Below are positions 1,812-24,905 of a stretch of DNA of 27,708 nt, in pieces. The notes below the pieces were generated by a model. It saw only the letters and a program-made list of their open reading frames with translations. It did not search any database and was not told where the DNA came from. Source of the stretch: a virus; the IMG/VR virus record IMGVR_UViG_3300024348_000193, positions 1 through 27,708 of that record. One strand, 5' to 3'. The position numbers were made by a program, and so were the translations under genes. Positions within the stretch are counted from its first letter, which is position 1, and every line of letters begins with the position of its first letter.

Positions 1812-2198
1812 ATGAAAAAGAATATTTTAAATGAGGAGATCTCAAAAATTCGCAAAATGATGGGCCTTAATGAAGGTGAGATGTGGGATATGGATGCTTC
1901 CAATAGAGACACCTACAATGATTCTGAAGATGAAAGGGATTACGAAGAGGATTCGGAAGATGAACTTTTTGACACTACCAGTAGAATGATTCACGATAAA
2001 CTTAACGAACCAACGGAATTTACCTTCGGTATGTATGATGCTTTAGAGAGCGCTGCTGACGAGGCTGTTAGCAATGAATGGGACCATATGGAAAAAAATG
2101 ACCCTCAAAGACCTGATTTAGTAAAGGGTGCTATGAAATTCTATCTAAAAACATATTTCAAAGACTGGTATAGAATGGCATCTGGGATGTTCAGCTAA
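1812..2198 (+). CDS. Tagged small acidic protein, putative internal head (cargo) protein
   Basis: A 128-residue acidic protein of no recognised family. It opens with MKKN then LNEEISKIRKMMGLNE, the clearest copy of the tag shared by many proteins here. The tag contains LNE at both ends, matching the (L/I)xE consensus of T4-type prohead proteases. After the tag come a D/E-rich stretch (about 25-55) and a probably helical C-terminal part. By analogy with T4 internal proteins I infer capsid targeting and cleavage after GLNE; this is not shown. The ATG is chosen because it places the tag at the N-terminus and follows a TATTTATT element at normal spacing. Confidence 0.75.
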   Translation: MKKNILNEEISKIRKMMGLNEGEMWDMDASNRDTYNDSEDERDYEEDSEDELFDTTSRMIHDKLNEPTEFTFGMYDALESAADEAVSNEWDHMEKNDPQRPDLVKGAMKFYLKTYFKDWYRMASGMFS

Positions 2199-2219
2199 AC
2201 ATATAAAACCACAACCTTA

Positions 2220-2227
2220 TATTTATA
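2220..2227 (+). promoter_or_regulatory. Candidate phage promoter element TATTTATA
   Basis: TATTTATA ends 14 nt before the ATG at 2242, the spacing seen at other starts with this element. It lies just after the stop of the preceding gene, so the two plus-strand genes may have separate promoters. Confidence 0.5.
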
Positions 2228-2241
2228 TCTAAACCAAAGTT

Positions 2242-2775
2242 ATGTTCAAGTACATCTCAGAGATCCTCTCAAAGTTATCCATGGGCCAGCGTCTGCTTGC
2301 TCTTGTATTCTTATTGCTTTCCATCACTTTCATAAGCGTGGGGCCGAAGGTTATCGATTCATTAACTCATGACACCGAAGAGCTAAAGGTTAAGGTGGAG
2401 AACCAACGTACTGAAATTCAAACACTTACACAACGAGTGAATGATCTTAACGACAGGATACTCAATGACCAGATGGCTTGCACCGATAAGTTTGTGACAA
2501 GGGAGAAAGAGATCATGGATCTTCTTTCCAATATTGAATCGGTTGCAAAGTCTGAGAATGGGAAGGTTTTATCGACTCAAACCGTATATGAGAGAAAAGA
2601 ATACAGACCTGTCTATGTGGAAGAGTATGGCGATGAGAACCAACCCAAGGTTGCCAGAATGGAGATGCCTTCACCACCAGTTGAAAAAACCGTTGTTATT
2701 AAATCCGATAATACAAAGATGCTTAAAATGATCTCGAAGGTTAAGAAAAACGTGGTGGATCATATGGGGCAATGA
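2242..2775 (+). CDS. Membrane-anchored coiled-coil protein
   Basis: A 177-residue protein of unknown family. One hydrophobic segment at about residues 19-37 (LALVFLLLSITFISVG) follows a short basic N-terminus, so it is probably a single-pass inner-membrane protein with its bulk on one side. Residues about 45-105 are heptad-rich and likely coiled coil. The rest is proline-containing and ends in a basic tail. One transmembrane helix plus a coiled coil would suit an i-spanin or another envelope-associated phage protein, but it is far from the endolysin and has no lipobox partner nearby, so I do not call it a spanin. It lacks the cargo tag. A U-rich hairpin follows it. Confidence 0.7.
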   Translation: MFKYISEILSKLSMGQRLLALVFLLLSITFISVGPKVIDSLTHDTEELKVKVENQRTEIQTLTQRVNDLNDRILNDQMACTDKFVTREKEIMDLLSNIESVAKSENGKVLSTQTVYERKEYRPVYVEEYGDENQPKVARMEMPSPPVEKTVVIKSDNTKMLKMISKVKKNVVDHMGQ

Positions 2776-2810
2776 CGGCCCGTACCGCCCCATGGGCGGA
2801 GAGTACCATT

Positions 2811-2836
2811 AATAATTTCCTGTAAATTATTTTTTT
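2811..2836 (+). terminator. Rho-independent terminator after the coiled-coil membrane gene
   Basis: AATAATTT (2811-2818) pairs with AAATTATT (2824-2831) across a 5-nt loop and runs into T2830-T2836. The stem is AT-only, so it is weak, but a GC-rich hairpin (CCGCC...GGCGG, about 2785-2799) lies just upstream. It overlaps the stop codon of the convergent gene ending at 2827. Confidence 0.55.
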
Positions 2837-3438
2837 GCTAAATCGTATGTGGGTAGTGTGTCTTTTGGTTGGATTCGTTTAACATTCTTTATTAAACTCG
2901 GGTTATATAAAACCATCATTGTGTCACCGTAACCAAAAGCGTTATCCACAATCTCGTAATCAACACCCAAACCAACCAGGAACGTTCTCCATGCAAATGA
3001 CTTGGGGCCTTTAAGGTAATTATGGTTTATTAATATGTTATTTACCAAATATAACGGTATACCATCATTGTGTATTCTGTAATTGGTTAAATTAAGTATA
3101 TCCTGTGCTGTTTTTTTGGGGAAGTTTTGGTTAAGGAATTGCATTAAAGATTCTATATCGATCTTCTTATCATTTATATCCACACCCTTTTGAACCGAAA
3201 CCAAATACATCTTCCTATTGCCCTTGGCATATTTTTTTGCAACATCATAATATGTTGTTAGGTATAAACCAGAACCATATTGTTGTCTGTCGGTTTTTTG
3301 TTGTATATCGTATTTGATTTCATCTAAGTCACCGCCATGAAAGAAATTCATTAAACTACTATCATCAGGTATCTCTATCATCTCTTCGGAGATCCCCATC
3401 ATTGTCTTCATTTTCGATATTTGTTCATTGAACAACAT
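2827..3438 (-). CDS. Tagged ADP-ribosyltransferase-like protein, putative injected effector
   Basis: A 203-residue protein. The N-terminus is the tag (MLFNEQISKMKTMMGISEE), with ISE at the predicted prohead-protease cut. The rest resembles H-Y-type ADP-ribosyltransferases: H34 in FFHGG, then YGSGLYLTT with Y59 at the second position, then a helix with AKKYA, and a C-terminal strand GDTMMVLYNP (about 170-180) where these enzymes place the third catalytic residue (E, Q or other). D replaces the usual E there, so activity is uncertain. The family moves ADP-ribose from NAD+ to proteins or nucleic acids. T4 Alt is a packaged, injected enzyme of this kind. It is 3 nt downstream of the GNAT/Nudix gene, so the two are probably one operon. 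Confidence 0.65.
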   Translation of the reverse strand: MLFNEQISKMKTMMGISEEMIEIPDDSSLMNFFHGGDLDEIKYDIQQKTDRQQYGSGLYLTTYYDVAKKYAKGNRKMYLVSVQKGVDINDKKIDIESLMQFLNQNFPKKTAQDILNLTNYRIHNDGIPLYLVNNILINHNYLKGPKSFAWRTFLVGLGVDYEIVDNAFGYGDTMMVLYNPSLIKNVKRIQPKDTLPTYDLAKK

Positions 3439-3441
3439 GTA

Positions 3442-5370
3442 TTATCTATTAATGATTGATTTCATTCTTAATAACGTTTCATTGAGTTGTTTATCCTCTT
3501 GCGCTTTCTTGTTATAATCTCTGGCAATACCTTTATTGGTGTCAATGCATTCTTCTGGTGACATCTCATCCAATTCTTCCAGTGTGAAGAATTTCTTTGC
3601 GGTATGCTCCTTCTTATCCAGTTTAACATTATCCACGTCAAATTCATTCGTATAGAACACATTTAATTGAACCTCATCCAATTCATATACCTTTAATTTC
3701 TTGAATGCGCCAACTTCAACGCCAGCCTCTTCTTTAACTTCTCTTCTTAACGCCTCTTCTGGGGTCTCACCCTTTTCTATGTGACCGCCAAGCATTCCGT
3801 ATTTGCCAGGGTTTGTTGTTTCCTCTGGGCTTCTCTTAAATAACAATACCTTGTTATCAATCACAATGAATAATAATGCGATTCTTTTCTTTTCCTTTTG
3901 TTCTTCTTCATTCATAATATCGTAAGACTCTTCTTTTGTCTTGCCCCATTTTTTTCCTTTTCCTGGTGTTCCGCATGATGCTGGAGTTGGTCTGCATGAT
4001 GGATACTTAGATCTCTTCTCACCATCTTTTCTTCCACAGGCTTTGCATTTCTTTTTTCCGCCAACGGTTGTACATGTGTTGCAATCAACCCATCCTTTGC
4101 TTCCACCACCACCTCTTCTGGAGAACCATCCGTGCAATCCGTCCTTCTTCTCCTTTGAGTAGTCTGTTTTCTTAGCCTCTTCCAACCCTTCCTCGCTCTC
4201 AAGGTGATCGTTTATCCACGCTTGCAACTCATGAACGTCTGGGGCGTAATCTTTGCCCTTTCTTCTTGTGATTGCATCGTGCGCCTTATAGATCAAAGTC
4301 TTAACGTCCTCTGGGGCGTCATTAACATCTTCTTCCTTAAGATCCTTCCAGATTTTTCCCTTGCGACATCTCACAATCGCACCAGATCTATATGCCGATG
4401 GTTTGTCGTATTTTCTTCTCGCTATTCTAAGACAACGATCCGCTTTCTTTTTTTCTTCATCAAGAACTTCGCCCTCCCCCAAATGAGAATCCAACTCAAC
4501 TGGTAAAACATCATCCAAGTATTCTTCCAACTCAATGAAAGATTTATTTATGTTGTTGATGATCTCGTTCCATTGTTCTTTGGTTAATGTTTCTTGTTCC
4601 AACACCTCATCGTAAGTGTAATCAAACGATTCCATCTGTTTTGTCATCGCCATTGTCATAACTCTATATAATAGCGCTTGTTCTGGCTCCTTAATTTCTG
4701 GTGGCATAAGCCAGGTTTGGTGTTTAAGGGATAACATGAACCTGTGACGGCCATCATACATATCCACAACGCTGTAGTTGAACTCAGATGAAAGATTAAA
4801 TTGTTTAAATAAGATTGGTTCACCGTCAGGGTTATATAACTCCACATTCTCATTATAGGTCATGTGTTGGAATTTTAATCTGGTGTCATCAGAATAATTC
4901 TTGAAGTGTCTTAAAAAGGGAACCCTTCTAATTAATTCTTCTGGTGCCATATCGACAGTGTATTTTGAATTGGCTTCACCAAGCCCCATCGTGTTTTTCA
5001 TCTTCGTTATTTCTTCATTCAACGAACCTTTTGGTGATCTGTACATATCTTCTTTGTGTGTAAAATCTCTATTGGCTCCCTTGTTTTCAACAAAACCAAA
5101 TCTTTTATAAAATTCTTTTAGTCTCGACACATTTCCACCATAACTATTTGATGGTGAAAGTGTTATCATCCACCCATCTTTATCAGCCAACGCAATAAGA
5201 TCCTCCATGAATGCGCTACCAGCACCGCCATTCCTCATTGAGATTGGTACGATAAAACCCGTAAGGTAAACCCTTTTCGCTTTTTCGGTTGGGTATAATT
5301 CAAATCTAATATCTGGATGTTTATCCAAAAGCGAATTAAAAATTGTATTTCCTGATACGTAAGAATTCAT
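3442..5370 (-). CDS. Multidomain GNAT - tag - zinc/Cys modules - Nudix hydrolase protein
   Basis: A 642-residue fusion. Residues about 30-110 resemble a GNAT acetyltransferase (NGGAGSAFMEDLIALADKDG for acetyl-CoA binding, then YKRFGFV). An internal tag, SLNEEITKMKNTMGLGEA, lies at 116-133. Residues 135-300 are unrecognised. Residues 308-345 (DRCLRIARRKY...PSAY...RCRKGKIW) and 408-475 (DGLHGWFSRRG...C-x2-C...C-x2-C...YPSCRPTP) are two modules that recur in phage proteins. Residues 495-615 are a Nudix domain with an intact Nudix box: G529, E535, then REVKEEAGV at 543-551. The C-terminus, LNETLLRMKSIINR, is a variant of the tag. LxE sites flank the tags, so this may be a polyprotein cut by the prohead protease. 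Nudix is certain, GNAT likely, processing inferred. Confidence 0.8.
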   Translation of the reverse strand: MNSYVSGNTIFNSLLDKHPDIRFELYPTEKAKRVYLTGFIVPISMRNGGAGSAFMEDLIALADKDGWMITLSPSNSYGGNVSRLKEFYKRFGFVENKGANRDFTHKEDMYRSPKGSLNEEITKMKNTMGLGEANSKYTVDMAPEELIRRVPFLRHFKNYSDDTRLKFQHMTYNENVELYNPDGEPILFKQFNLSSEFNYSVVDMYDGRHRFMLSLKHQTWLMPPEIKEPEQALLYRVMTMAMTKQMESFDYTYDEVLEQETLTKEQWNEIINNINKSFIELEEYLDDVLPVELDSHLGEGEVLDEEKKKADRCLRIARRKYDKPSAYRSGAIVRCRKGKIWKDLKEEDVNDAPEDVKTLIYKAHDAITRRKGKDYAPDVHELQAWINDHLESEEGLEEAKKTDYSKEKKDGLHGWFSRRGGGGSKGWVDCNTCTTVGGKKKCKACGRKDGEKRSKYPSCRPTPASCGTPGKGKKWGKTKEESYDIMNEEEQKEKKRIALLFIVIDNKVLLFKRSPEETTNPGKYGMLGGHIEKGETPEEALRREVKEEAGVEVGAFKKLKVYELDEVQLNVFYTNEFDVDNVKLDKKEHTAKKFFTLEELDEMSPEECIDTNKGIARDYNKKAQEDKQLNETLLRMKSIINR

Positions 5371-6669: not shown

Positions 6670-7569
6670 ATGAAAAAACCTTTATTAAACGAAGAAATAG
6701 CTAAAATGCGCAAGATGATGGGTCTTAACGAAGGTCCTGTAAGCGTAAACGATTATCAAAGCGGTGAAAATTCTTATGGGGATGAATCCACTAACTTTGA
6801 GGATATGTTTTATAAAACATTAAACGGACATGAAATAGAATCACTTGAGTTTGAGGGTGTTGTTTATGTTGATGGTAGAAACAAATGTATTGTTAGTGAT
6901 GGTGAGAGGATTACCCCTAGCAAAGAACAATTAAAAGATCTTTGGGATGAATACGTTGATAGTGAAGGTTTATATCTTGAGAAAGCAAATGAGGGTGGCG
7001 ATGACGCCAACGAAGATACTGTTGGTATTATAACCAGTAGAGGTAAATTAATGCCAGGTTATTTTGAGAAGTTCGGTTTAATATCGGCTGGTGATAATAT
7101 GTTATTCGATAAAGGAGGTAATGTTGTGTTACAGGGTGGTGGTTACCCAGAAGGTGGCTTCAAAGAATACACCGATCCAAAAGAACTCGAAAAAGATATT
7201 TGTAATAACTATGAAAAAATTATTAATTCATTTAGATCACACGCACCAAAGACTGTTCAATTAAACGAGACTTACGATGTCATTAAAAAATCGGTTGAAT
7301 GTGATTTAGTTTATGAATCTTTAGAAGAAGGTAGCTATGAAATAGACCCAACATACACACACTTTGCTGTTAACAACGAAGACGGTAAAATTTATAACGG
7401 TTGGGAGTATGATTCAGACATGGATAAGGCATCAATATTATATTACTGTAAAATTGATTTAAAGGACATGGATCTAAACCCTAAAAATTTTAAAATTATT
7501 ACAAAAAAATATTTATTAAGTTCAAATATAGACCCATTTGACAGTAATAACTGGAAAAACAATAATTAA
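6670..7569 (+). CDS. Tagged protein of unknown function, putative cargo
   Basis: A 299-residue acidic protein. It opens with MKKP and the tag LNEEIAKMRKMMGLNE. The body is not recognised: two beta-rich segments (about 50-95 and 110-165, GRNKCIVSDGERITPS and GYFEKFGLISAGDNMLFDKG) and a C-terminal domain. Residues about 197-215 (QLNETYDVIKKSV...) begin with LNE and look like a second, weaker tag, so the protein may be cut there too. It is first in a plus-strand operon with very short gaps that continues through the tagged gene at 7992 to the appendage proteins. Confidence 0.75.
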   Translation: MKKPLLNEEIAKMRKMMGLNEGPVSVNDYQSGENSYGDESTNFEDMFYKTLNGHEIESLEFEGVVYVDGRNKCIVSDGERITPSKEQLKDLWDEYVDSEGLYLEKANEGGDDANEDTVGIITSRGKLMPGYFEKFGLISAGDNMLFDKGGNVVLQGGGYPEGGFKEYTDPKELEKDICNNYEKIINSFRSHAPKTVQLNETYDVIKKSVECDLVYESLEEGSYEIDPTYTHFAVNNEDGKIYNGWEYDSDMDKASILYYCKIDLKDMDLNPKNFKIITKKYLLSSNIDPFDSNNWKNNN

Positions 7570-7991: not shown

Positions 7992-8450
7992 ATGAAAAAA
8001 GAAGTTTTAAAAGAAGAGATAACCCAGATTAGAAAAATGATGGGCCTTAAAGAGGGTATAGAATATTCCCCCGAAAAAATAGATCAGTTTATAGCTGAGG
8101 CCGACAAAACTGTTAATATGAGTAAAGCTGTCATACAAAAGTATGGTGGTATGATTATGAATTTAACAATGAATGATGTTTTAGATGACATTAATGGTGC
8201 TAAGGTTAGTTTGGATAAATTAAAAAGCTCAAAAAAACACATCGAGGGTCAATTCAATAAGTTCTATGATATTGTTGAAATGTACGATTATATGGATTTA
8301 CCAGATAACGTCCAGAAATTGAGTGACCTTAATGATTTATTAGATAAAGCGGTTATGCCATTGGGTGAGCTTGAAGATGTCTTTGATGCGTTAATTGATG
8401 CAGCTGAGCGAGTTGAACGATACGATATAAAAAGTTTTTTAAATAATTAA
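7992..8450 (+). CDS. Tagged helical protein, putative cargo
   Basis: A 152-residue, mostly helical protein. It opens with MKKEV and the tag LKEEITQIRKMMGLKE, both ends of which read LKE, matching (L/I)xE. The remainder has long amphipathic helices (for example residues 60-90 and 105-140) and no recognised domain. It is followed 5 nt later by an appendage protein gene, so cargo and structural genes share a transcript, consistent with late expression. Confidence 0.75.
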   Translation: MKKEVLKEEITQIRKMMGLKEGIEYSPEKIDQFIAEADKTVNMSKAVIQKYGGMIMNLTMNDVLDDINGAKVSLDKLKSSKKHIEGQFNKFYDIVEMYDYMDLPDNVQKLSDLNDLLDKAVMPLGELEDVFDALIDAAERVERYDIKSFLNN

Positions 8451-8455: not shown

Positions 8456-9328
8456 ATGAGTAAAGACGTAAGAATTAAATTAAGTGGTGAAACCGCAATT
8501 GACGGTGCCAAATTATTGGGTAACGTTGCTTTGGTTACGGGTGACACCGTATCATATAATGAAGGATCTTGGGTTGGTGGTGTTGATGATTCCGATGGTT
8601 ATGTTATTATCGGTGATACTGATACCTCTGGTTTAATCGGTAGGACTACTGGTGGCGGTACTGGTGTTGTTACTGAAATGGTTCCAACATTTTGGAAAGC
8701 TAACGGGCTAACCAACGAAGACCTTATCGAATTGGTTAATAGGATACCTGGTTCCCCTGGTAATATCTCATCTAGTACTGAAGCACGAAATTGGTTAACC
8801 ACGCAAGACAGATTCATTATTTCAAATGATTACAGCGATGGTGATGGTGGTGGTGGTAATTACACGTTAGGTGATTATATGTTATCAACACAGTATTCAC
8901 CAGCACCCTTAGATGGGTTTATTTCATTCCCAGCACACCCAGTTGTTGGTGGGCCAGGTGGACAATCCGTAACAAACCCAAATTTAGTTGGTACTAATGA
9001 CGGTGAATATGAATACCAATTATATATCAATTCTAGAGATAGCTTGGGTAATGATTCGTCTGTAAAATTAGACCAATTAATAGGTAATTCAGGTACTTTA
9101 ACTTTAACACAAGGTTCTGATTCCGTAACATATACTTTCACTAATCGTGCATTCCAAACTGGTTACCCAGATCAGGTTGGTCAGGAACCCGTTTACTTCT
9201 ACGATAGTAAATTCGTTGTTAATGGTGAGTCTCAATCAGCCCCACTAGGTGCTGTTAGTGTTTTAACACCTTCACTTGATCATTTTAACACGGTAGACCC
9301 TATAACAATTACAGTAACGATTTCATAA
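8456..9328 (+). CDS. Phage appendage protein, paralogue of the next gene
   Basis: A 290-residue protein. The first 120 residues are strongly similar to those of the gene at 9342: EGSWVGGVD, GYVIIGDTDTSGLIGR, GGGTGVVTE...PTFW, LVNRIPGSPGN and ARNWLTTQ. The same design, more diverged, opens the gene at 27254. The C-terminal 165 residues are beta-rich with many G, S, N and T, as in tail-fibre or head-decoration tips. I read the N-terminus as a shared virion-docking module and the C-terminus as a variable module. The start at 8456 is used because the ATG at 8451 meets a stop after one codon. Confidence 0.7.
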   Translation: MSKDVRIKLSGETAIDGAKLLGNVALVTGDTVSYNEGSWVGGVDDSDGYVIIGDTDTSGLIGRTTGGGTGVVTEMVPTFWKANGLTNEDLIELVNRIPGSPGNISSSTEARNWLTTQDRFIISNDYSDGDGGGGNYTLGDYMLSTQYSPAPLDGFISFPAHPVVGGPGGQSVTNPNLVGTNDGEYEYQLYINSRDSLGNDSSVKLDQLIGNSGTLTLTQGSDSVTYTFTNRAFQTGYPDQVGQEPVYFYDSKFVVNGESQSAPLGAVSVLTPSLDHFNTVDPITITVTIS

Positions 9329-9341
9329 AAAAGATTATAAA

Positions 9342-11636: not shown

Positions 11637-11667
11637 AAAAGGGGTTTTTAAACCCCTTTTTCTTTTT
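11637..11667. terminator. Bidirectional terminator between convergent genes
   Basis: AAAAGGGGTTT (11637-11647) pairs with AAACCCCTTTT (11650-11660). T-rich sequence follows on the plus strand and an A-run precedes, so it can act in both directions. It includes the stop codon of the minus-strand gene ending at 11648. Confidence 0.8.
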
Positions 11668-12184
11668 CTATTAATAATTCCCCTAGAACCTCTATCTTAC
11701 CGACTAGCTCTTGAAAAGCTATTTGTTCTATATCCATATCCCCTTTTGTCGCTGAATAAAGTTGTTCTAACAATTCTTTATATTCTTTTTTAACATCTTC
11801 AAAATCTAATTCACCTTTAGAAGCTTTTTCATAATATGGTAACTTAACCTCAAAATGGTGATAGGTTAACATCGCAACCCCACCTTTTTCTTTGGCGTTA
11901 TCAACTATCTTTTCGGCACCACCCATTCTTTTTTCAGAAAAATCTTCCAAAGATTCTTCTTTATCATCCGCTTCACCCAACTCTATTGGATTGGCTTTAC
12001 CGTGTGTTGTTCTTATTGGTGATGGTGCGTTTCCGATAGGTGCGGCAGGGCCACTCCTATTAATACCAGTCTCCCATTTTTTCTTTGCGGCACCTGTTGG
12101 GTTTTGTGACGTTCCTGAAGATTCACCATCTTCATTTAAACCCATAACCTCTTTGATTCTAGATATTTGTTCGTTCAATTCCAT
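11648..12184 (-). CDS. Tagged phage protein, putative cargo
   Basis: A 178-residue protein opening with the tag MELNEQISRIKEVMGLNED. A low-complexity linker (about 20-65, rich in G, P, S and T) follows. The C-terminal 100 residues (AKEKGGVAMLTYHHFEVKLPYYEKA, then FQELVGKIEVLGELL) look like a conserved domain I have seen in hypothetical proteins of T4-like phages; its function is unknown. The ATG overlaps the stop of the upstream gene as TAATG (shared base 12184), so the two tagged genes are probably translationally coupled. Confidence 0.75.
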   Translation of the reverse strand: MELNEQISRIKEVMGLNEDGESSGTSQNPTGAAKKKWETGINRSGPAAPIGNAPSPIRTTHGKANPIELGEADDKEESLEDFSEKRMGGAEKIVDNAKEKGGVAMLTYHHFEVKLPYYEKASKGELDFEDVKKEYKELLEQLYSATKGDMDIEQIAFQELVGKIEVLGELLIEKEKGV

Positions 12185-13464
12185 TACATAATATAATTAG
12201 TTAATTCATATTTTCCAGAAGGCATTCTATATAATGAGATTTGTAACATTTTTTTAAGCGGTTTACCGTCTTTTAATATTTCAACGTGATATTGAACCGT
12301 TTTCTCATATGCAACGTGTTGCGGTGTAATACTTTCCCAGTTAACATCGAAACCTTTATGTTTAGCGTATTCTTCAGCTGATTGTAGGGCTTCAGATTGT
12401 GTATTATAAAAATTTTCTTGTTTGAATCCAGGTCTACCCTCATACACTTTACCATCTTTACCAGCTCTCATTTTCATAAATGATTCCACCTCTTCTCTAA
12501 TTCCTAAATCGTCTAATGCATCAGTCGTATCTTCAAAACCAGGTATGTCTTTAGATGTCTCGGTATCATCATTACCAAACAAATCATCGATTAATGATTG
12601 AGCCATGGATTTTAAATCAATTTTATTATTACCACGACCCATATTCCAAACACCCCCTAAAGCGTTTTCAAGGTAATCAACTCTATTATCAGAACCAACC
12701 ATTGCATCTTCCATGGCAAGATCCCAACCACCGATCGCTGACTCCTCGTCAACTCCTTCTCTAATACCTAAACCATCTAATGCGTCAGTTGTACCCTCAA
12801 AGCCAGGCATATCTTTGGGTGTTTCTTGTTCATCATCAATTTTAGCTATAAGTTCTTTAATATATTCATCAGCCTTCATCTTCGTAACAACACCAGAAAC
12901 AAACTCGTTGGCTTTAGCGTTTTCTTCCCCGCCCAATTCATCTGCAAGAACCATAATCATACCCATCTGTTCGAAAGTCATCCTGTTGGATGGTCTATTC
13001 AAAATAGCGGTTGATTTACTAATATTCTCATCTATTTCTTCTTCAGCCTCACAATGCTCACCACATTCAGAACATATGTCATGCATAACAATTGGTGCGC
13101 CACAACAATCTGAAAGGCCGTCACCATCGCTGTCACTAGGGTCAAACGCCTCATTTTTCTCAAATGTTTCTGGATCTCTATCTTGTTTATTAGCGGTTGC
13201 GTAATAAACTTCTTCACCCTTTTTATCACCGTATTGATCTTTGAATTTATTAAGAACTTCAGTGTTCTCATCAGCTTCCTCTTCTCTCATTGAACCAACA
13301 ATATCTGAAGGGGATATTTCTTCGATAGCGTTTTTACCATAATTAATTTCATAATCATCGTCATCAGGTGACATATTCGTTTCTTTACCGCTCGGGCTGA
13401 TGTGTTTAACGCCCATCATTTCCTGTATCCTAGTAACTTCTTCGTTTAAACTTTTCTTTTTCAT
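12184..13464 (-). CDS. Tagged modular acidic protein with internal duplication, putative cargo
   Basis: A 426-residue acidic protein. The N-terminus is MKKK then the tag LNEEVTRIQEMMGV; here the second LxE after the G is absent (VKHIS). Residues 109-139 hold DSDGDGLSDCCGAP...CSECGEHC, a Cys/His cluster likely to bind zinc. A segment at 211-238 (PKDMPGFEGTTDALDGLGIRE) is repeated at 299-326 with few changes. Residues 340-426 form a separate beta-rich C-terminal domain. No enzymatic motif is seen. It leads the two-gene minus-strand unit with the tagged gene at 11648 and has TATTTATT 19 nt upstream. Confidence 0.75.
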   Translation of the reverse strand: MKKKSLNEEVTRIQEMMGVKHISPSGKETNMSPDDDDYEINYGKNAIEEISPSDIVGSMREEEADENTEVLNKFKDQYGDKKGEEVYYATANKQDRDPETFEKNEAFDPSDSDGDGLSDCCGAPIVMHDICSECGEHCEAEEEIDENISKSTAILNRPSNRMTFEQMGMIMVLADELGGEENAKANEFVSGVVTKMKADEYIKELIAKIDDEQETPKDMPGFEGTTDALDGLGIREGVDEESAIGGWDLAMEDAMVGSDNRVDYLENALGGVWNMGRGNNKIDLKSMAQSLIDDLFGNDDTETSKDIPGFEDTTDALDDLGIREEVESFMKMRAGKDGKVYEGRPGFKQENFYNTQSEALQSAEEYAKHKGFDVNWESITPQHVAYEKTVQYHVEILKDGKPLKKMLQISLYRMPSGKYELTNYIM

Positions 13465-14211: not shown

Positions 14212-17200
14212 ATGGCAAATTTAAATTTAAGAAAAAACCTTAACCAAGCATTAAGTTTCACACAGTTAGATGGTAACTTTGAGTACTTGGAAAGTGTTGA
14301 CGTGTCGTTGGCGTCTGTTGTTACCGCAGCTGACTCATCGTTGTCAACTAGAGTTTCTGCTGAAGAAGTAGCTAGAGCAAGTGCCGACACTTCTATCGAA
14401 GCTGTTATTTCAGCTAACGAATTAGCTAATGATTCAGCTGACGCTTCATTAACCGCAAGAATCTCTGCTGAAGAGGTTGCAAGAGCTTCTGCCGATACTT
14501 CTATCGTAGCTGTTATCTCTGCAAACGCATCTGCTGACGATTCATTAGAATTAAGATTATCTACTGAAGAAGTAGCTCGTGCATCTGCCGACACATCTAT
14601 CGTTAACTACGTTGATGGTGAAATGTCTGCTGAGGAATCTGCAAGAATTTCTGGTGACGCATCTTTAACTACAAGAGTTTCAACTGAAGAGTCTGTAAGA
14701 GAAAGCGCTGATGATTCATTAGAGGTTAAAATCTCTACTGATATTTCAGCCGCAAATTCTTCTAACGCTTCTGCTGATGCTTCATTAACAGCTAGAATTT
14801 CTGCTGAGGAGATTGCTAGAGCTGATGCTGATTCATCTATCGTAGATGCCTATGTTTCTGCTGACGCTTCTTTAGAATTAGCTTATGTTTCTGCTGACAC
14901 ATCTATCGTTAACTACGTTGACGCTGAAATGTCTACAGAAGAATCTGTAAGAGAAAGCGCTGATACTTCATTAACTACAAGAGTATCTAACGAAGAAGTT
15001 GCTAGAGCTTCTGCTGACACTTCAATCGTTGCATTGATCTCAGGTAATGCTTCTGCTGATGATTCATTAGAATTAAGATTATCTACCGAGGAAACTGCTA
15101 GAGCATCTGCTGACACATCTATCGTAACTTACTTAGATGCTGAAATGTCTACAGAAGAATCTGTAAGAGCTTCTGCTGATGCATCAATAATGGTTGTTGT
15201 TGATAACAATAAATCAGTACTTGACGTTGCTGATGCTTCATTGACAACAAGATTGTCTAACGAAGAGGTTGCAAGAGCTTCTGCTGATACGTCAATCGTT
15301 AACTATGTTGACGCTGAAATCTCTGCTGAGGAATCCGCAAGAATTTCTGGTGATGCATCTTTAACTACAAGAGTTTCAACTGAGGAATCTGTAAGATCTT
15401 CTGCTGACGCATCTTTAGCAACTAAAATTTCAACTGATATTTCAGCTGCAAATTCTTCTAATGCTTCTGCTGATGCTTCATTAACAGCTAGAATTTCTGC
15501 TGAGGAATCTGTAAGATTATCTACAGATGATGAATTATTTCAATACACTACTGATCAGGTTTATGCTGAGACATTAAACAGAGAGTCTGCTGATACTTCA
15601 TTAACAACTAGATTGTCTAACGAAGAGTCTGTAAGAACAAGTGCTGATGCATCTATCGTGACAGCTTATACAGCTGCTGATTCAACTGAAGCTTCTATTA
15701 GATTATCTGCTGATACTTCTATCGTAGCGTTGATTTCTGGTAATGCTTCTGCTGATGATTCATTAGAGGCTAGATTATCCGCTGAGGAAGTTGCTCGTGC
15801 ATCTGCTGATACTTCAGTTGTTGCTTATGTTGACGCTGAAATGTCTACAGAAGAATCTGCAAGAATTTCTGGTGATGCTTCATTGACAACAAGATTGTCT
15901 AACGAAGAGTCTGTAAGAGAAAGTGCTGATTTATCTATGTATACTGCTTTAGATAACGATATTGCAGCTGAAGAGTCTGGAAGAATTTCTGGTGATGCTT
16001 CATTGACAACAAGATTGTCTAACGAAGAGTCTGTAAGAGAATCTGCTGATGATTCATTGGAGGTTAAAATCTCTACTGATATTTCTGCTGCTAATTCTTC
16101 TAATGCTTCAGCTGATGCCTCATTAGCTACTAGAATTTCAACTGAAGAGTCTGTAAGAACGAGTGCTGACGCATCATTAGCTACCGCTATTGGTGATGAA
16201 GAACAAGCTAGAATTACTGCCGTTTCAAACGAAGCTTCTTTAAGAGTGTCTGCTGACGATTCAATCGTTGCATTGATCTCAGGTAACGCTTCTGCTGATG
16301 ATTCATTAGAAACTAGATTGTCTAACGAAGAGTCTAACAGAGCTTCTGCTGATACTTCAGTTGTTGCTTATTTAGACGCTGAAATGTCTACAGAAGAATC
16401 TGTAAGAGCTGCTGCTGACGCATCTTTAGAGGTTAGATTGTCTAACGAAGAAGCTACTAGAGAATCTGGGGATAATGATTTATATCAGTACATCGATACT
16501 GAGATGTCTACAGAAGAATCTGTAAGAGCAAGCGCTGATACGTCAATCGTTAACTATGTTGATGCTGAAATGTCTACAGAAGAATCTGTAAGAGCTGCTG
16601 CTGACGCATCATTAACTACAAGAGTATCTAACGAGGAGTCTGTAAGAACTTCTGCTGATGCTTCTATCGTAGCATTGATCTCAGGTAATGAATCCGCAAA
16701 TGATTCTGCTGACGCTTCTTTGACAACTAGATTGTCTAACGAAGAGTCTGTAAGAGCAAGCGCTGATACTTCAATTGTTAACTTTATTAACAACGAGGTT
16801 TCAATTTTAGAAGATGCTGACGCTTCTATCGTAGATGCTTATGTTTCTGCTGACGCTTCTTTAGAATTAGCTTACACATCTGCTGATACTTCATTAACAA
16901 CTAGATTGTCTAACGAAGAGTCTGTAAGAACTTCTGCTGATGCTTCTATCGTAGCATTGATCTCAGGTAATGAATCTGCAAATGATTCAGCTGATACTTC
17001 ATTAACTACAAGAATTTCTGCTGAGGAATCTGTAAGAGCAAGCGCTGATACATCATTAGCTAACTTGATCGCAGCTAACAACCAGTTAGATATCAATGGT
17101 CAAGTATTAGACTTAGCTGACGAAACTTTAACTATCGAAGGCACTAGCCAAGAAGTTATGGTTGACACATCTTTCGATGGTAATGGTAATGTTACAATTA

Positions 17201-17652
17201 CTGTTGGTCTTGAGGATACTATCTTCGTAGACACTAACGGTGAGCACACAGGTAACGTTGTTCCAGAAGTTTACAGAGATACAATGAAGACAGTATACAA
17301 CGGTGGTAACTTCGGTTCAGCGACTGGTACTGTAACTGTAACAGGTGAATTAAATAATATCGTTGTTATCGATGCTGCTATCGTAACTGCTGGTGTTATT
17401 GATTTAACTGGTGTTGTTGCTGGTACTTTAACTCACTTCGTGGTTAAGGACTTAGCTGGTAATAGCACTGGTTCTTCTACTGTAACACTTAAATTCGCTG
17501 CCGTATATGGTAACCCTTACGGTAATGTTGATTTAGTATTACAAGAAGGTGAGGCTGCTCAAATCTACATGATCGGTACTGGTCAAGGTTTAGTATTGTC
17601 TCTAAACAAAGCTGTTACTTATGTAACTGAATATCCATCAGATTTGAAATAA
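14212..17652 (+). CDS. Giant repetitive phage fibre protein
   Basis: A 1146-residue protein. The first 30 residues (NLRKNLNQALSFTQLDGNFEYLE) resemble the N-terminal attachment region of phage tail fibres. Residues about 35-950 are an almost unbroken array of 14-18-residue units of the form SADxSLTTRLSNEESVRx, rich in S, A, D and E, predicted to form a long trimeric coiled stalk. Residues about 955-1146 are a beta-rich tip (NGQVLDLADETLTIEG, then VVIDAAIVTAGVIDL). By type it is a long tail or head fibre; a homotrimer is inferred. The nucleotide sequence is also repetitive. A strong terminator follows. It may share a transcript with the J-domain gene. Confidence 0.85.
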   Translation: MANLNLRKNLNQALSFTQLDGNFEYLESVDVSLASVVTAADSSLSTRVSAEEVARASADTSIEAVISANELANDSADASLTARISAEEVARASADTSIVAVISANASADDSLELRLSTEEVARASADTSIVNYVDGEMSAEESARISGDASLTTRVSTEESVRESADDSLEVKISTDISAANSSNASADASLTARISAEEIARADADSSIVDAYVSADASLELAYVSADTSIVNYVDAEMSTEESVRESADTSLTTRVSNEEVARASADTSIVALISGNASADDSLELRLSTEETARASADTSIVTYLDAEMSTEESVRASADASIMVVVDNNKSVLDVADASLTTRLSNEEVARASADTSIVNYVDAEISAEESARISGDASLTTRVSTEESVRSSADASLATKISTDISAANSSNASADASLTARISAEESVRLSTDDELFQYTTDQVYAETLNRESADTSLTTRLSNEESVRTSADASIVTAYTAADSTEASIRLSADTSIVALISGNASADDSLEARLSAEEVARASADTSVVAYVDAEMSTEESARISGDASLTTRLSNEESVRESADLSMYTALDNDIAAEESGRISGDASLTTRLSNEESVRESADDSLEVKISTDISAANSSNASADASLATRISTEESVRTSADASLATAIGDEEQARITAVSNEASLRVSADDSIVALISGNASADDSLETRLSNEESNRASADTSVVAYLDAEMSTEESVRAAADASLEVRLSNEEATRESGDNDLYQYIDTEMSTEESVRASADTSIVNYVDAEMSTEESVRAAADASLTTRVSNEESVRTSADASIVALISGNESANDSADASLTTRLSNEESVRASADTSIVNFINNEVSILEDADASIVDAYVSADASLELAYTSADTSLTTRLSNEESVRTSADASIVALISGNESANDSADTSLTTRISAEESVRASADTSLANLIAANNQLDINGQVLDLADETLTIEGTSQEVMVDTSFDGNGNVTITVGLEDTIFVDTNGEHTGNVVPEVYRDTMKTVYNGGNFGSATGTVTVTGELNNIVVIDAAIVTAGVIDLTGVVAGTLTHFVVKDLAGNSTGSSTVTLKFAAVYGNPYGNVDLVLQEGEAAQIYMIGTGQGLVLSLNKAVTYVTEYPSDLK
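14290..17060 (+). repeat. Tandem coding repeats, unit about 54 nt, inside the fibre gene
   Basis: Most units encode 18 residues around SADxS and SNEESVR. Longer near-duplicates are embedded; for example 16636-16694 matches 16918-16976. The array is prone to recombination and length change. The bias also leaves spurious stop-free frames on the opposite strand (14175-14594, 14913-15116, 16554-16793, 16872-17096). Confidence 0.85.
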
Positions 17653-19585: not shown

Positions 19586-19604
19586 TGTTCTAAATTCAAA
19601 AAAG

Positions 19605-19676
19605 TTGGCCCACCCAGATTTGAACTGGGAATACATCCTTATCAGGGATGCGTGATAACCGTTTCACTATGGGCCA
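19605..19676 (-). tRNA. tRNA-Ile (GAU)
   Basis: Minus strand. Acceptor TGGCCCA pairs fully with TGGGCCA, discriminator A. Anticodon stem CATCC/GGATG encloses loop CTGATAA, anticodon GAT. T-loop TTCAAAT. No encoded CCA. Last gene of the array in transcription order. Confidence 0.9.
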
Positions 19677-19768
19677 ATATGCAAAATAACCAAATGAGCT
19701 ACAGGACGTTAAACTAAATTTTGCACGATAAACAATATGTGTTTATTGTCGCAAAAACAGGTTTATTG
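19677..19768 (-). pseudogene. Spacer with tRNA 5'-half remnant
   Basis: At 19687-19707 the minus strand reads like a tRNA 5' end and D-arm (TCCTGTAGCTCATTTGGTTA), but no anticodon or T-arm follows. GCAAAAT (19681-19687) and ATTTTGC (19718-19724) form an inverted repeat around it. It looks like a deleted tRNA gene. Confidence 0.45.
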
Positions 19769-19840
19769 TACCCCCAAAGCGATTCGAACGCCTATTTCTT
19801 GATTCGTAATCAAGTGTTCTATCCGTTGAACTATGAAGGT
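19769..19840 (-). tRNA. tRNA-Arg (ACG)
   Basis: Minus strand. Acceptor ACCTTCA/TGGGGGT (two G-U pairs), discriminator A. Anticodon stem CTTGA/TCAAG with loop TTACGAA, anticodon ACG, presumably read as ICG. T-loop TTCGAAT. Confidence 0.88.
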
Positions 19841-19959
19841 AAATAATAGGTCATTGTTACAACATCTTTCACCTACTTTCTTGGCAAGGTCTCCATCATG
19901 GGTTCCGTTAACCGATGTTTATTTTATAACCCCTTACGGAACAAGTGGGGTAACCTATT
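19841..19959 (-). other. Unassigned structured spacer in the tRNA array
   Basis: 119 nt without a tRNA or ORF. GTTCCGT (19902-19908) pairs with ACGGAAC (19936-19942), and ACCCC (19929-19933) with GGGGT (19947-19951); the two pairings interleave. It could be a degenerate gene or a small RNA. Confidence 0.3.
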
Positions 19960-20037
19960 TGGGGTGACTGGTGGGGATCGAACCCACGACCTCTTGAATC
20001 ACAATCAAGCACTCTAACCAACTGAGCTACAGAAACC
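19960..20037 (-). tRNA. tRNA-His (GUG), acceptor stem with two mismatches
   Basis: Minus strand. Anticodon stem CTTGA/TCAAG with loop TTGTGAT, anticodon GTG. The His-specific extra pair G-1:C73 is present and CCA is encoded (19960-19962). Acceptor positions 3 and 4 face C and T, so two of seven pairs are mismatched (GTTTCTG against CAGTCAC). T-arm GTGGG/CCCAC is intact. It may be decaying or need unusual processing. Confidence 0.8.
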
Positions 20038-20043
20038 GTGTTG

Positions 20044-20130
20044 CGGAAGATAGAGGATTCGAACCTCTGGGTCGGTTTCCCGACCAACTCCTTAGCAGGG
20101 AGCCACAATCGACCTCTCTGTCAATCTTCC
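20044..20130 (-). tRNA. tRNA-Ser (GCU)
   Basis: Minus strand. Class II with a long variable arm (TTGGTCGGGAAACCGACC). Acceptor GGAAGAT/ATCTTCC, discriminator G. Loop CTGCTAA, anticodon GCT. Confidence 0.92.
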
Positions 20131-20134
20131 TTGG

Positions 20135-20206
20135 TAGCGAGAGGGAGTTTCGAAATCCCGACCTTTCGGATATGAGCCGAACGCTCTTCCTCTGAGCTAT
20201 CTCGCC
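20135..20206 (-). tRNA. tRNA-Met (CAU), elongator or Ile2 type
   Basis: Minus strand. Acceptor GGCGAGA/TCTCGCT with a G1-U72 wobble, discriminator A, CCA encoded (20132-20134). Loop CTCATAT, anticodon CAT. It lacks the three G-C pairs of initiator tRNA. It could be elongator Met or lysidine-modified Ile(CAU); sequence alone does not decide. Confidence 0.85.
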
Positions 20207-20211
20207 ATTGG

Positions 20212-20282
20212 TTGTCCCGCCAGGACTCGAACCTGGACGACCCGAGTCAAAGTCGGGCGAACTGCCATTATTCTACAGGACA
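20212..20282 (-). tRNA. tRNA-Gln (UUG)
   Basis: Minus strand. Acceptor TGTCCTG/CGGGACA with the U1-A72 pair usual for tRNA-Gln, discriminator A. Stem CCCGA/TCGGG, loop CTTTGAC, anticodon TTG. Confidence 0.92.
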
Positions 20283-20288
20283 TTGTTG

Positions 20289-20370
20289 TGCCAGCAGGTG
20301 GACTCGAACCACCGAACCCGTAAGGGAGCTGATTTACAGTCAGCTGCAATTGCCGCTATGCGATACTGGC
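20289..20370 (-). tRNA. tRNA-Tyr (GUA)
   Basis: Minus strand. Class II with a long variable arm. Acceptor GCCAGTA/TGCTGGC, discriminator A. Stem GCTGA/TCAGC, loop CTGTAAA, anticodon GTA. Confidence 0.92.
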
Positions 20371-20511
20371 AAGTTAGGGAAGAGGAAGATGGTTCAGTGG
20401 ACATCCTCTTTTACGATCGGCATTACTTGGGTGAATACCTGCAAACTCCGATCACACCAGTCAGTATTCACTCTCGAACTATTGATGTGATCATTCCCCG
20501 ATCAACCTTTG
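20371..20511 (-). other. Structured spacer with interleaved inverted repeats
   Basis: 141 nt between tRNA-Tyr and tRNA-Val with no tRNA. GTGAATAC (20431-20438) pairs perfectly with GTATTCAC (20464-20471), and GATCACA (20450-20456) with TGTGATC (20486-20492). The two helices interleave, as in a pseudoknot. GATCGG (20415-20420) can pair with CCGATC at 20448-20453 or 20498-20503. AAGAGG...CCTCTT near 20380-20410 adds a fourth hairpin. Candidate structured RNA. Confidence 0.4.
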
Positions 20512-20584
20512 TACACCCTATAGGACTCGAACCTATGACATCTGCCATGTAAGGGCAGCGCTCTACCAACTGAGCTAAAGGTGC
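20512..20584 (-). tRNA. tRNA-Val (UAC)
   Basis: Minus strand. Acceptor GCACCTT/AGGGTGT, discriminator A. Stem CTGCC/GGCAG, loop CTTACAT, anticodon TAC. T-loop TTCGAGT. Confidence 0.92.
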
Positions 20585-20688
20585 ATGTGTCCCTTCGTAG
20601 GTACTTGCCGTTTCTTAAGTCGACACTTTCCCCGTTGCGTGTTTTATTTAAGTGTACTTCCCTACTGGGATTTGAAGCCAACACATTG
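20585..20688 (-). pseudogene. Spacer with tRNA 3'-half remnant
   Basis: At 20655-20679 the minus strand resembles a tRNA T-arm and 3' acceptor (GGCTTCAAATCCCAGTAGGG), but no matching 5' half, anticodon or full T-stem is present. The rest of the spacer shows nothing recognisable. Confidence 0.35.
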
Positions 20689-20769
20689 TACCCAAAGAGA
20701 GATTCGAACTCTCACGCCTTTCAGCCACGGTTTCTAAGACCGTTATGTCTACCATTCCATCACTCGGGC
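20689..20769 (-). tRNA. tRNA-Leu (UAG)
   Basis: Minus strand. Class II. Acceptor GCCCGAG/TTTGGGT, discriminator A. Stem ACGGT/ACCGT, loop CTTAGAA, anticodon TAG. T-stem GAGAG/CTCTC. Confidence 0.9.
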
Positions 20770-20776
20770 ATTTTAG

Positions 20777-20847
20777 CACGGATACAAGGATTCGAACCCT
20801 GACCAAGAGATTTGGAGTCACTTATGCTACCGTTACACCATATCCGT
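20777..20847 (-). tRNA. tRNA-Trp (CCA)
   Basis: Minus strand. Acceptor ACGGATA/TATCCGT, discriminator G as usual for Trp. Loop CTCCAAA, anticodon CCA. The anticodon stem AGTGA/TCTCT has one T-T mismatch. Confidence 0.87.
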
Positions 20848-20856
20848 GTTTATTTG

Positions 20857-20926
20857 AGTATAAGGTTGGAATCGAACCAACTCCGCAAGTTTTGCAGACC
20901 TGCTGGCCTCCACGACCAACTTATAC
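20857..20926 (-). tRNA. tRNA-Cys (GCA)
   Basis: Minus strand. Acceptor GTATAAG/CTTATAC with U73, the discriminator typical of tRNA-Cys. Loop CTGCAAA, anticodon GCA. Confidence 0.92.
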
Positions 20927-20931
20927 GTTTG

Positions 20932-21006
20932 TGTCCCCGACAGGACTCGAACCTGTGACTCCCTCATTAAAAGTGAGGTGCTCTAAACCAACTGAGCTAC
21001 GAAGAC
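20932..21006 (-). tRNA. tRNA-Lys (UUU)
   Basis: Minus strand. Acceptor GTCTTCG/CGGGGAC, discriminator A. Stem CCTCA/TGAGG, loop CTTTTAA, anticodon TTT. Confidence 0.92.
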
Positions 21007-21111
21007 GTTTTTAGCTCAAAACTAACTAAATTATGGCTCAATTTTTAACCTAAATGAGCTATAAACCCGATATCAATGACCTAAAAGCCCAATATCGGTC
21101 AATTTGAGTTG
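21007..21111 (-). other. AT-rich spacer with D-arm-like fragment and hairpin
   Basis: At 21046-21061 the minus strand reads TAGCTCATTTAGGTTA, close to the D-arm fragment in 19687-19707. CCGATAT (21067-21073) pairs with ATATCGG (21092-21098). No complete tRNA can be folded. Confidence 0.35.
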
Positions 21112-21186
21112 TAGCGTAGACAGGACTCGAACCTGCACTATGTCCTCATCCCAAATGAGGCGGCCTACCAATTGGCCAACTACGCT
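21112..21186 (-). tRNA. tRNA-Pro (UGG)
   Basis: Minus strand. Acceptor AGCGTAG/CTACGCT, discriminator A. Stem CCTCA/TGAGG, loop TTTGGGA, anticodon TGG with G37 as in bacterial tRNA-Pro. Confidence 0.9.
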
Positions 21187-21224
21187 ATTTTAAAATTACC
21201 AATACGTCAAAGAACTATATTCTG

Positions 21225-21300
21225 TCTAGATGGCAAGATTCGAACTTGCGTGCTCCTACGTCCAAGGTAGGTGAGATAGACCTGACTCCTCTACATCTAG
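21225..21300 (-). tRNA. tRNA-Pro-like (UGG), second copy, isotype uncertain
   Basis: Minus strand. Acceptor CTAGATG/CATCTAG, discriminator A; T-stem GCAAG/CTTGC. Stem CCTAC/GTAGG, loop CTTGGAC, so the anticodon reads TGG. A37 instead of G37 and an 11-nt D-loop are unusual for Pro. First gene of the array in transcription order. Confidence 0.78.
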
Positions 21301-22007: not shown

Positions 22008-22008
22008 G

Positions 22009-23211: not shown

Positions 23212-23216
23212 AGTTT

Positions 23217-23948
23217 TTAAGAATTTAAAAGTTTATAAAATTTATTAAAGTACTGGATTCTATCGTTTAATCCGTTAGTACCACCGTTAACTTTTCTAGT
23301 AACAGCAGTTATTGTGTTTACATCTGCCCCTTTATCACATATAGGCCAAAGTCTTACACTATTAAAGAAGTAAGCAGCTGACATCATCGGGTATTTAGTA
23401 GCAACTAAATCTGGGTTACTAACACAATCCTCGCCACAAAAGGCGGAGAATCTCGTATAGTTAGCTCTACCAGTCAACTGGATATAGCCACGCCCTTTAA
23501 ATCTAACCCCGTCACCAGGTTCAGTATTACCCAAATCCTTTCTACCCTCATACGCTTTACCAGATGCGAACTCAACCACCCATTTAAAATTACCCGATTC
23601 ATGGGCACACTGGGATAAGAAATGAGCCAACCTTAAGTTTGTTGTTATATTAAATTTTTTAGCTGTATCTGGTATTTGTGCCAAAACATTATCGGGTATT
23701 TGACCCTTTAATTTAACTAAATTAAGATTTGTATCGGATAAATCGACTTGAGTGACTATTGTTGGTTTAGGAAACATTTTATTCCACGTATTATCACCAA
23801 CAACACCATCATCCAAAAGACCGTTAGCTTTTTGCCAAGCCTTAACCTTTTTTTCGGTCCCAGAACCAAATTTACCGTCATCTTTTATTCCTAAGAAGCG
23901 CTGTAATTTTTTAACGTCTTCCCCAGTAGATCCTACTTTTAATAACAT
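23217..23948 (-). CDS. Endolysin: peptidoglycan-binding domain plus GH19 catalytic domain
   Basis: A 243-residue endolysin. Residues 1-60 are a PG_binding_1-type domain (GSTGEDVKKLQRFLG, then DGVVGDNTWNKM). Residues about 75-243 are a GH19 chitinase-like lysozyme domain: AHESGNFKW with catalytic-type E117, YEGR with E134, and FKGRGYIQLTGRANY (150-164). It would cut the glycan backbone of host peptidoglycan at lysis. There is no signal peptide or SAR segment, so release needs a holin, and none is evident nearby. It lies between a 52-residue gene and the tail-collar gene on the minus strand. Confidence 0.92.
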   Translation of the reverse strand: MLLKVGSTGEDVKKLQRFLGIKDDGKFGSGTEKKVKAWQKANGLLDDGVVGDNTWNKMFPKPTIVTQVDLSDTNLNLVKLKGQIPDNVLAQIPDTAKKFNITTNLRLAHFLSQCAHESGNFKWVVEFASGKAYEGRKDLGNTEPGDGVRFKGRGYIQLTGRANYTRFSAFCGEDCVSNPDLVATKYPMMSAAYFFNSVRLWPICDKGADVNTITAVTRKVNGGTNGLNDRIQYFNKFYKLLNS

Positions 23949-23970
23949 AACTATTTAATTTTAAGCGTTT

Positions 23971-24129
23971 TTATTTTACCCTCTCTACAGTAAATAGTCT
24001 TAAAAAATCCTTTAGACTTAAGTTTTTTAGTTGAGCGAAGTATTTCGCAGCGTCAAGCCTGTTATTATGTTTTGTTGTTTTTGATACTGGTTCACGTTTA
24101 GAGTCTGTTTTTCTGTAATAAAAAATCAT
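23971..24129 (-). CDS. Small conserved-looking basic phage protein (52 residues)
   Basis: A 52-residue basic protein (MIFYYRKTDSKREPVSKTTK, then LDAAKYFAQLKNLSLKDFLRLFTV). The pattern Y-Y-R-K-T-D-S at the start and AA..FA..K.L....FL..F.V resembles small proteins I have seen in other phages of Bacteroidota, with unknown function. It is the first gene of the minus-strand lysis/tail cluster, 22 nt before the endolysin gene. Confidence 0.65.
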   Translation of the reverse strand: MIFYYRKTDSKREPVSKTTKHNNRLDAAKYFAQLKNLSLKDFLRLFTVERVK

Positions 24130-24182
24130 GATATTAAATTTTTATATTCTTAATCATAATAATTTTTTTCTAATAATCAAGA

Positions 24183-24190
24183 TATTTATA
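24183..24190 (+). promoter_or_regulatory. Candidate phage promoter element TATTTATA
   Basis: TATTTATA ending 13 nt before the ATG at 24204. It lies between divergent genes and reads TATAAATA on the minus strand, so it might also serve the cluster starting at 24129. Confidence 0.5.
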
Positions 24191-24203
24191 AGAAAGAAAA
24201 CTT

Positions 24204-24905
24204 ATGTTAACATTTGATACATTACCCGATAAAGTAAAAGATAACTATAAAAGAAACATAACTTCCAGTGTTGCGTTCGTTAAAGCGGATGGTACTGTGA
24301 GACATATCGCTTTTAGAAGAAATTTAAATTCGTATATCGCTAGTGATAAACCTAAGAGTGAAAAACAGGTTAACGTACAAGCGAATAACAACCTATTATT
24401 AGTTGTTGATACTAACGCATATATTAAGGCGCTAAAGGGATCAAACGGTGATAAAGCAGCTGCTGCTAAGAAGGCTTGGAGAAATATTAAGTTAGGTGAA
24501 GTTTTAGCTTTCATGGCCTCTGGCGAGGTTTTTGATATGCGAGAAGAAAATAATATACTTGAAAGATATGGTGAAGAAATTTATTCTCAGTTAACACCTA
24601 ACATGAAAGCAGCATTAATGAGTGATATCAATCAGTCGTCAGACGTGGATAAATATGTGATCGAACCAATGGAAGGTTCCGAAGAAGAGGTTAATGATAA
24701 CCTAAAAGAATCGGATATGTATAATGAGACCACGGATAATGACTACACTGATGATATTTATAATCCAGAAATAGATTACGAGGAGATGATAAGTAAGCAT
24801 GAGGATGAAGAAGACGGCAAACACGCTATGAAGACGTATGACGATTTTGAATCTGGGGCTATATATGAAACAATCACTCGTATGAAAAAATTAATCAACC
24901 ACTAA
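24204..24905 (+). CDS. Phage protein with C-terminal tag, putative cargo
   Basis: A 233-residue protein. Residues 1-120 (DKVKDNYKRNITSSVAFVKA, VRHIAFRRNL, then YIKALKG and GEVLAFMASGEVFDMREENN) look like a conserved phage domain whose function I do not know; the start may be a small beta-barrel. Residues 150-218 are acidic and low in complexity. The last 14 residues, IYETITRMKKLINH, match the tag in C-terminal form, preceded by IYE, an (L/I)xE site. It is followed after 11 nt by a small basic protein gene, so the two are co-transcribed. Confidence 0.75.
   Translation: MLTFDTLPDKVKDNYKRNITSSVAFVKADGTVRHIAFRRNLNSYIASDKPKSEKQVNVQANNNLLLVVDTNAYIKALKGSNGDKAAAAKKAWRNIKLGEVLAFMASGEVFDMREENNILERYGEEIYSQLTPNMKAALMSDINQSSDVDKYVIEPMEGSEEEVNDNLKESDMYNETTDNDYTDDIYNPEIDYEEMISKHEDEEDGKHAMKTYDDFESGAIYETITRMKKLINH

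Follow-up and report, generated by a model that had tools for sequence, protein, structure and literature searches.

A recurrent leader peptide on diverse proteins of T4-like jumbo phages, a probable capsid-targeting propeptide

Why should proteins with different bodies, encoded on both strands of one viral genome, carry the same short peptide? This question is raised by the virus record IMGVR_UViG_3300024348_000193, whose 27,708 bases were analysed as a whole (hereafter the window; the record holds no further contigs). In the window, a 16-residue tag stands at the N-terminus of six open reading frames (ORFs) and inside a seventh, ORF 3442-5370, and a shorter variant of the tag closes two ORFs, 3442-5370 and 24204-24905. 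A sequence-only reading had proposed a T4-like capsid-targeting system, and this proposal is supported at the sequence level by the ends of the tags, the presence of gp21 and gp23 in relatives, the exchange of leaders and the kinds of cargo. In these T4-like jumbo phages, a clade of mostly uncultured viruses, the tag is very probably a removable capsid-targeting propeptide, equivalent in function to the capsid-targeting sequence (CTS) of phage T4.

Copies of the tag and their distribution

A BLOSUM profile built from the reported copies was run over the six frames of the window. Seven strong copies were found and none beyond (scores 50.7-60.4), while the next best hit scored 28.1 and the maximum in 30 shuffles was 25.1. 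Together with the two C-terminal variants, these copies confirmed the tag at every site that had been named on the two strands. The motif [LI]xE lies exactly at the end of six of the seven tags, the exception being ORF 12184-13464 with the ending GVKH, and the C-terminal variants carry QLNE and AIYE. The ORFs are as follows, with a slash at each putative cut.

1812..2198, plus strand: putative cargo ORF of 128 amino acids (aa); N-terminal tag MKKNI-LNEEISKIRKMMGLNE/, core 1827-1874
2827..3438, minus strand: putative cargo ORF of 203 aa, ADP-ribosyltransferase (ART)-like; N-terminal tag ML-FNEQISKMKTMMGISE/, core 3385-3432
3442..5370, minus strand: putative fused cargo ORF of 642 aa; internal tag at residues 117-132, LNE/EITKMKNTMGLGE/, core 4975-5022; module order GNAT-like, internal tag, body, DUF5872-like, NUDIX, C-terminal tag QLNE/TLLRMKSIINR
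6670..7569, plus strand: putative cargo ORF of 299 aa; N-terminal tag, core 6685-6732
7992..8450, plus strand: putative cargo ORF of 152 aa; N-terminal tag, core 8007-8054
11648..12184, minus strand: putative cargo ORF of 178 aa; N-terminal tag, core 12131-12178, then a linker and a conserved body of about 100 aa (11651-11950)
12184..13464, minus strand: putative cargo ORF of 426 aa; N-terminal tag variant ending GVKH, core 13402-13449
24204..24905, plus strand: ORF of 233 aa; C-terminal tag variant AIYE/TITRMKKLINH

The C-terminal domain of ORF 1812-2198 also occurs in longer tagged proteins of two relatives, G005 and G001, and in the same two genomes the C-terminal domain of ORF 7992-8450 is preceded by an extra domain. 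Close relatives of ORF 24204 were not found in cultured phages.

The tag might be thought of as a spreading DNA element or a recombination hot spot with no peptide function, as it is common to genes that lie on both strands and have unrelated bodies. At same-residue positions across the window tags, however, the codons were identical in 73 of 156 cases, against 73.7 expected from independent draws at the codon usage of the window. Synonymous codons are thus randomised while the peptide is kept, which indicates that selection maintains the peptide, not that the DNA was recently repeated. In addition, one body bears unrelated leaders that share just the helix-plus-LxE plan, and the tag keeps its reading frame when it relocates to the C-terminus. 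Per position, the variant is found about 28 times as often at C-termini as internally (14 C-terminal cases, taken from the genomes studied and including some orthologues of each other, versus 9 in 410,094 internal positions). A DNA-repeat origin was ruled out by the codon data, and an explanation without any peptide function seems to us next to impossible.

Searched with a degenerate DNA pattern for the tag core, IMG/VR gave matches in at least 119 stretches; the size of this collection, about 57 Gb, was estimated from a random 15-mer that matched 107 stretches. In genomes of bacteria and archaea (257 Gb), the same pattern gave four matches, none of them N-terminal, and these were taken as chance because all four lie inside unrelated ORFs. 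The tag is phage-specific, being common among viral contigs and essentially absent from bacterial genomes. From the viral loci, 114 non-redundant tagged proteins were extracted, 103 with an N-terminal tag and 11 with a tag that is internal in the longest ORF; several of these 11 are probably matters of start-codon choice. The bodies, stripped of their tags, group into 60 BLAST families, and conservation in an alignment of 112 proteins is confined to the tag columns. The earlier description of the bodies as unrelated therefore holds broadly, but not for those of ORFs 1812 and 6670, which are linked via other family members. A short tblastn search of INPHARED with the tag gave no matches, being too insensitive for this purpose, and no description of the tag was found in the literature searched, which excluded most subscription journals. 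When N-termini were clustered with a low score cut-off, 287 edges resulted, versus 233 with shuffled sequences; this approach was swamped by chance and was dropped.

Tag ends and the capsid cut site

The cleavage rule of the T4 gp21 protease is L/I-X-E (PMC9026906). The tag columns outside the search pattern are informative in this respect, since they were not selected by the pattern. All 103 N-terminal tags have L, I, V or F at column 14 (P3), and the phiKZ-type motif S/A-X-E was not found there. Column 15 varies but is most often Asn, and 61 of these tags have Glu at column 16, where conservation ends. Among all 114 tagged proteins, [LIVMF]xE occupies columns 14-16 in 66 and lies within six residues of them in 33 more, giving a total of 99, compared with a background of 2.2% per position in the bodies. 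Asn is found at P2 in 51 of 87 [LIVMF]xE tag ends, against a background of 6.6%.

Among the 25 larger tag-bearing contigs, gp21 and the major capsid protein (MCP) gp23 were detected in 12, always together; these are 12 of the 16 contigs of at least 129 kb. The 321-kb relative G015 encodes gp21, gp23 and, upstream of the MCP gene, a scaffold-position protein with five [LIM][NS]E[SGAN] sites, the densest in the genome. The expected gp23 cut position reads ENQAS..[LI]NE/[SA] in all 12 MCPs of the tagged contigs that bear gp21 and gp23, whereas the same position in phages without the tag reads VSE/A (immuto), LKE/A (LR756508) or LRE/S (CBB). The tag-bearing clade thus appears to share [LI]NE between its capsid cut site and most of its tag ends. 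We consider this apparent match a stronger point than the co-occurrence of gp21 and gp23.

The protease gene of G015 (183551-185353; L031:3551-5350) encodes 600 aa, with two S77 halves split by an intein-like insert that matches the PHROG thymidylate synthase and PhoH profiles.

Leader exchange, cargo and cultured relatives

The body of window ORF 11648-12184 (residues 79-178) was found in 70 viral loci, on which it bears 48 distinct leaders. In 45 of the 48, [LIVMF]xE lies within residues 6-26, versus 59% of shuffled leaders and 36-44% of all proteins. The leaders on this body include the LNE tag itself, MKILLSESQLKRLIE/S, MKLTDILTE/S, MIKLKNIISE/A and MIQHYEEFIAE/K, the last of which is close to MKTYQEFIAE/A, the start of ipII and ipIII in the T4 record. 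The ART bodies carry LNEQISRIKEMMDINE/ in G015, MEMKKLMEDISAIME/ in phage CBB and MNLKELQESISSIME/ in phage Munch. The tag of ORF 24204 is C-terminal, whereas its orthologue in the relative G031 has the N-terminal leader MSRKIIVTESQLKRLLDRMINE/S.

G031 also contains an island at 236-259 kb (L248-L249), in which more than 12 genes with assorted leaders ending in [LIV]xE lie beside orthologues of window genes. Many leaders of this island are of a second type, LTESDLVNIVESVINE/ and ITESQLKKIIDSEIDE/.

The modules of the fused ORF 3442-5370 are separate in relatives. Its GNAT-like domain occurs with a C-terminal tag in G005, the body after the internal tag is a free-standing N-tagged protein in G023, and the DUF5872/NUDIX part is a protein of its own with a C-terminal tag in G001. 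The internal tag therefore marks a junction of former cargo units. It is bordered by LNE and LGE, and cleavage may free the individual enzymes. The NUDIX domain of this ORF is also matched by positions 514-627 of phrog_15528 ("portal protein"), suggesting that a NUDIX domain has been fused into, or mixed with, that family.

The recognisable bodies among the tagged proteins are ADP-ribosyltransferases, NUDIX, GNAT, thioredoxin, P-loop kinases and Acb1. Three tagged Acb1 proteins, directed against the cyclic-oligonucleotide-based anti-phage signalling system (CBASS), scored above the Pfam cut-off and have two HxT motifs. ORF 2827-3438 matched the Pfam families ART-PolyVal and DUF3990 with E values of 5.6e-5 and 3.8e-6, below the gathering cut-off, which its G015 homologue passes. 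An AlphaFold model of the ART from five sequences had a mean predicted local distance difference test score (pLDDT) of 53.6, which was too poor, and it was not interpreted. Judged by these enzyme types, the cargo would fit early host take-over or anti-defence roles, like those of T4 Alt and IPI.

In the cultured Flavobacterium phage immuto, whose host is Flavobacterium sp. LMO8, gp082 (MRLLELLRE/A) is an orthologue of the window 11648 body and gp084 (...ILSE/KKADRC) is an orthologue of the DUF5872 region. Some 6-8 kb separate the two genes from the head block downstream, which comprises the terminase, portal, protease, scaffold and capsid genes. Adjacent to gp082 and gp084, gp083 has a tag-like leader, MKKQILSEQFRRMQKLAGIITE/S, with a profile score of only 25. 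In gp076, gp077 and gp083, the putative cuts would follow LVE, LTE and ITE. This relation to immuto suggests that the hosts of the window phage are Bacteroidota.

Adjoining gp084 and near gp082 is immuto gp085, which ends in KNYKKLYRGQGK; it is resembled by a basic 50-aa protein of the window (24917-25069) that ends in KNYKKPYRGQGR. Two annotations in NC_055915.1 are likely to be wrong: gp067 ("DNA polymerase phi-like") has the scaffold position before the MCP, and gp082 ("tRNA(Ile2) agmatinyltransferase") is an orthologue of the window 11648 body. In CBB (KU574722.1), neighbouring genes at 344-355 kb have a common N-terminus like MLPF.R..EYGN on diverse bodies, and several genes in CBB_534-553 encode virion proteins according to published mass spectrometry. 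This N-terminus is possibly another targeting or attachment tag.

Delivery route, alternatives and known systems

A route for the tagged proteins can be drawn after the T4 precedent, in which internal proteins carry a CTS and Alt is processed at both ends (PMC9026906). The amphipathic segment NEEIxKMKxMMG would bind a gp22-like scaffold core and so draw the tagged enzymes into the prohead, where gp21, an S77 protease, would cut after [LIV]xE at the end of the tag, or before the helix in C-terminal tags. The freed cargo would stay with the DNA in the head and enter the host by ejection. By analogy we infer each of these steps, from core binding through packaging and cleavage to injection, as well as a function in host take-over. 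We also lean slightly towards a wider proposal, in which effectors are generally delivered by way of the head. Leaders that bind the scaffold and can be interchanged, placed N-terminally, C-terminally or between fused domains, would address at least 10 proteins per phage to the capsid, among them Acb1, ADP-ribosyltransferases and enzymes of the GNAT and NUDIX types. The protease would split even multi-enzyme polyproteins into effectors that act ahead of all phage gene expression, and the tag would then predict the injected effectors of uncultured jumbo phages.

Several points speak against capsid targeting by the tag. An LxE within six residues is missing from 15 of the 114 tags. Neither gp21 nor gp23 was detected in the 27.7-kb window or in other small relatives, and the window has no head genes, as expected because these are fragments; the relatives G003 and G005, for example, measure 68-70 kb. 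Four tag-bearing contigs of 157-215 kb also lack detectable gp21 and gp23; a T4 portal profile found no match in the contigs without gp21 and gp23, but it was silent in its controls too. As gp21 was also present in three of seven random large contigs, its co-occurrence with the tag is by itself a weak argument, and after this control it was set aside as the chief one. The MCP cut sites were assigned by position. In the literature, a virion proteome was found neither for immuto nor for any tagged phage. The 55 virion proteins reported for CBB, a list that may be incomplete according to its authors (PMC5259590 Table 4), do not include CBB_455, which is homologous to the ART but has a different leader.

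The tagged proteins could also enter the prohead core and be cut there, yet serve as core or scaffold, or be expelled or degraded in maturation, and so never be injected. T4 gp22 and gp67 undergo the same L/I-X-E cleavage and for the most part do not stay in the head (PMC9026906), and several cargo bodies have no assigned function. However, the ART, NUDIX, GNAT, Acb1 and thioredoxin bodies have no obvious structural role, and the bodies vary strongly among phages (60 families of 114), unlike essential core proteins. We therefore regard this fate as unlikely. Loading into another part of the virion, such as the tail tube, the baseplate or a lumen like that of extracellular contractile injection systems (eCIS), is a further alternative. 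The cargo of eCIS also bears N-terminal signals, and the tagged genes of the window are interspersed with fibre-like genes (8456-11615) and not with head genes. Against this, the tag ends in a prohead protease motif that matches the inferred capsid cut site, and the leader-swapped orthologues include one with a T4 CTS-like leader and two in immuto near the head block. Loading elsewhere than in the head is, in our judgement, very improbable.

Capsid targeting by the tag is best compared with the T4 CTS of IPI-III and Alt, which is cut by gp21 and is likewise a short N-terminal leader on unrelated proteins, ending in [LI]xE. The genes for gp21 and gp23 are also found in tag-bearing relatives, ADP-ribosyltransferase cargo is common to both, and the processing of Alt at both ends would have its likeness, to judge from sequence, in the tag system. 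The tag, however, is longer and has another sequence (NEEIxKMKxMMG-LNE versus MKTYQEFIAE), and the window tag shows no recognisable homology to the T4 CTS peptide MKTYQEFIAE. Unlike the T4 CTS, it marks a wide range of cargo within one phage (G015 has 11 tagged ORFs), Acb1 included, and it occurs at C-terminal and internal positions and on fused multi-domain cargo. In phiKZ and SPN3US, many head proteins, ejected ones included, bear propeptides that are removed by a gp21-related protease; the phiKZ rule is S/A-X-E (PMC9026906), whereas the tag system has [LIV]xE and a recurrent conserved 16-mer in T4-like phages. To judge from their description, the anti-restriction proteins DarA and Hdf of phage P1 resemble the proposed cargo in being anti-defence proteins associated with the head. 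In immuto, LR756508, CBB and Munch, short leaders ending in [LIVM]xE are also found on homologous bodies (the ART in CBB and Munch, the 11648 body in immuto), but the leader sequences differ, as do the inferred MCP cut sites (VSE, LKE, LRE). We class the tag system as a novel and greatly extended form of T4 capsid targeting.

Phage-injected proteins are known for very few phages, and finding them generally takes mass spectrometry on virions from culture. With a recognisable leader that is tied to the capsid cut site, the injected effectors of uncultured giant phages could be listed from sequence, and proteins with no assigned function that bear the tag are candidates for anti-defence or take-over factors. 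Acb1 points to a ready-made delivery of anti-CBASS enzymes, and the exchange of leaders suggests that the T4 CTS is one instance of a far broader, changeable address code. Immuto offers a natural test system for this interpretation.

Other features of the window were also recorded. Fourteen tRNA genes are arrayed on the minus strand at 19604-21300. A 1146-aa protein with repeats of the SADASL/EESVRASADTS type (14212-17652) is probably a fibre and had no useful family match. The fibre-like ORFs at 8456-9328, 9342-11615 and 27254-27708 have a related N-terminal region and differing C-terminal parts.

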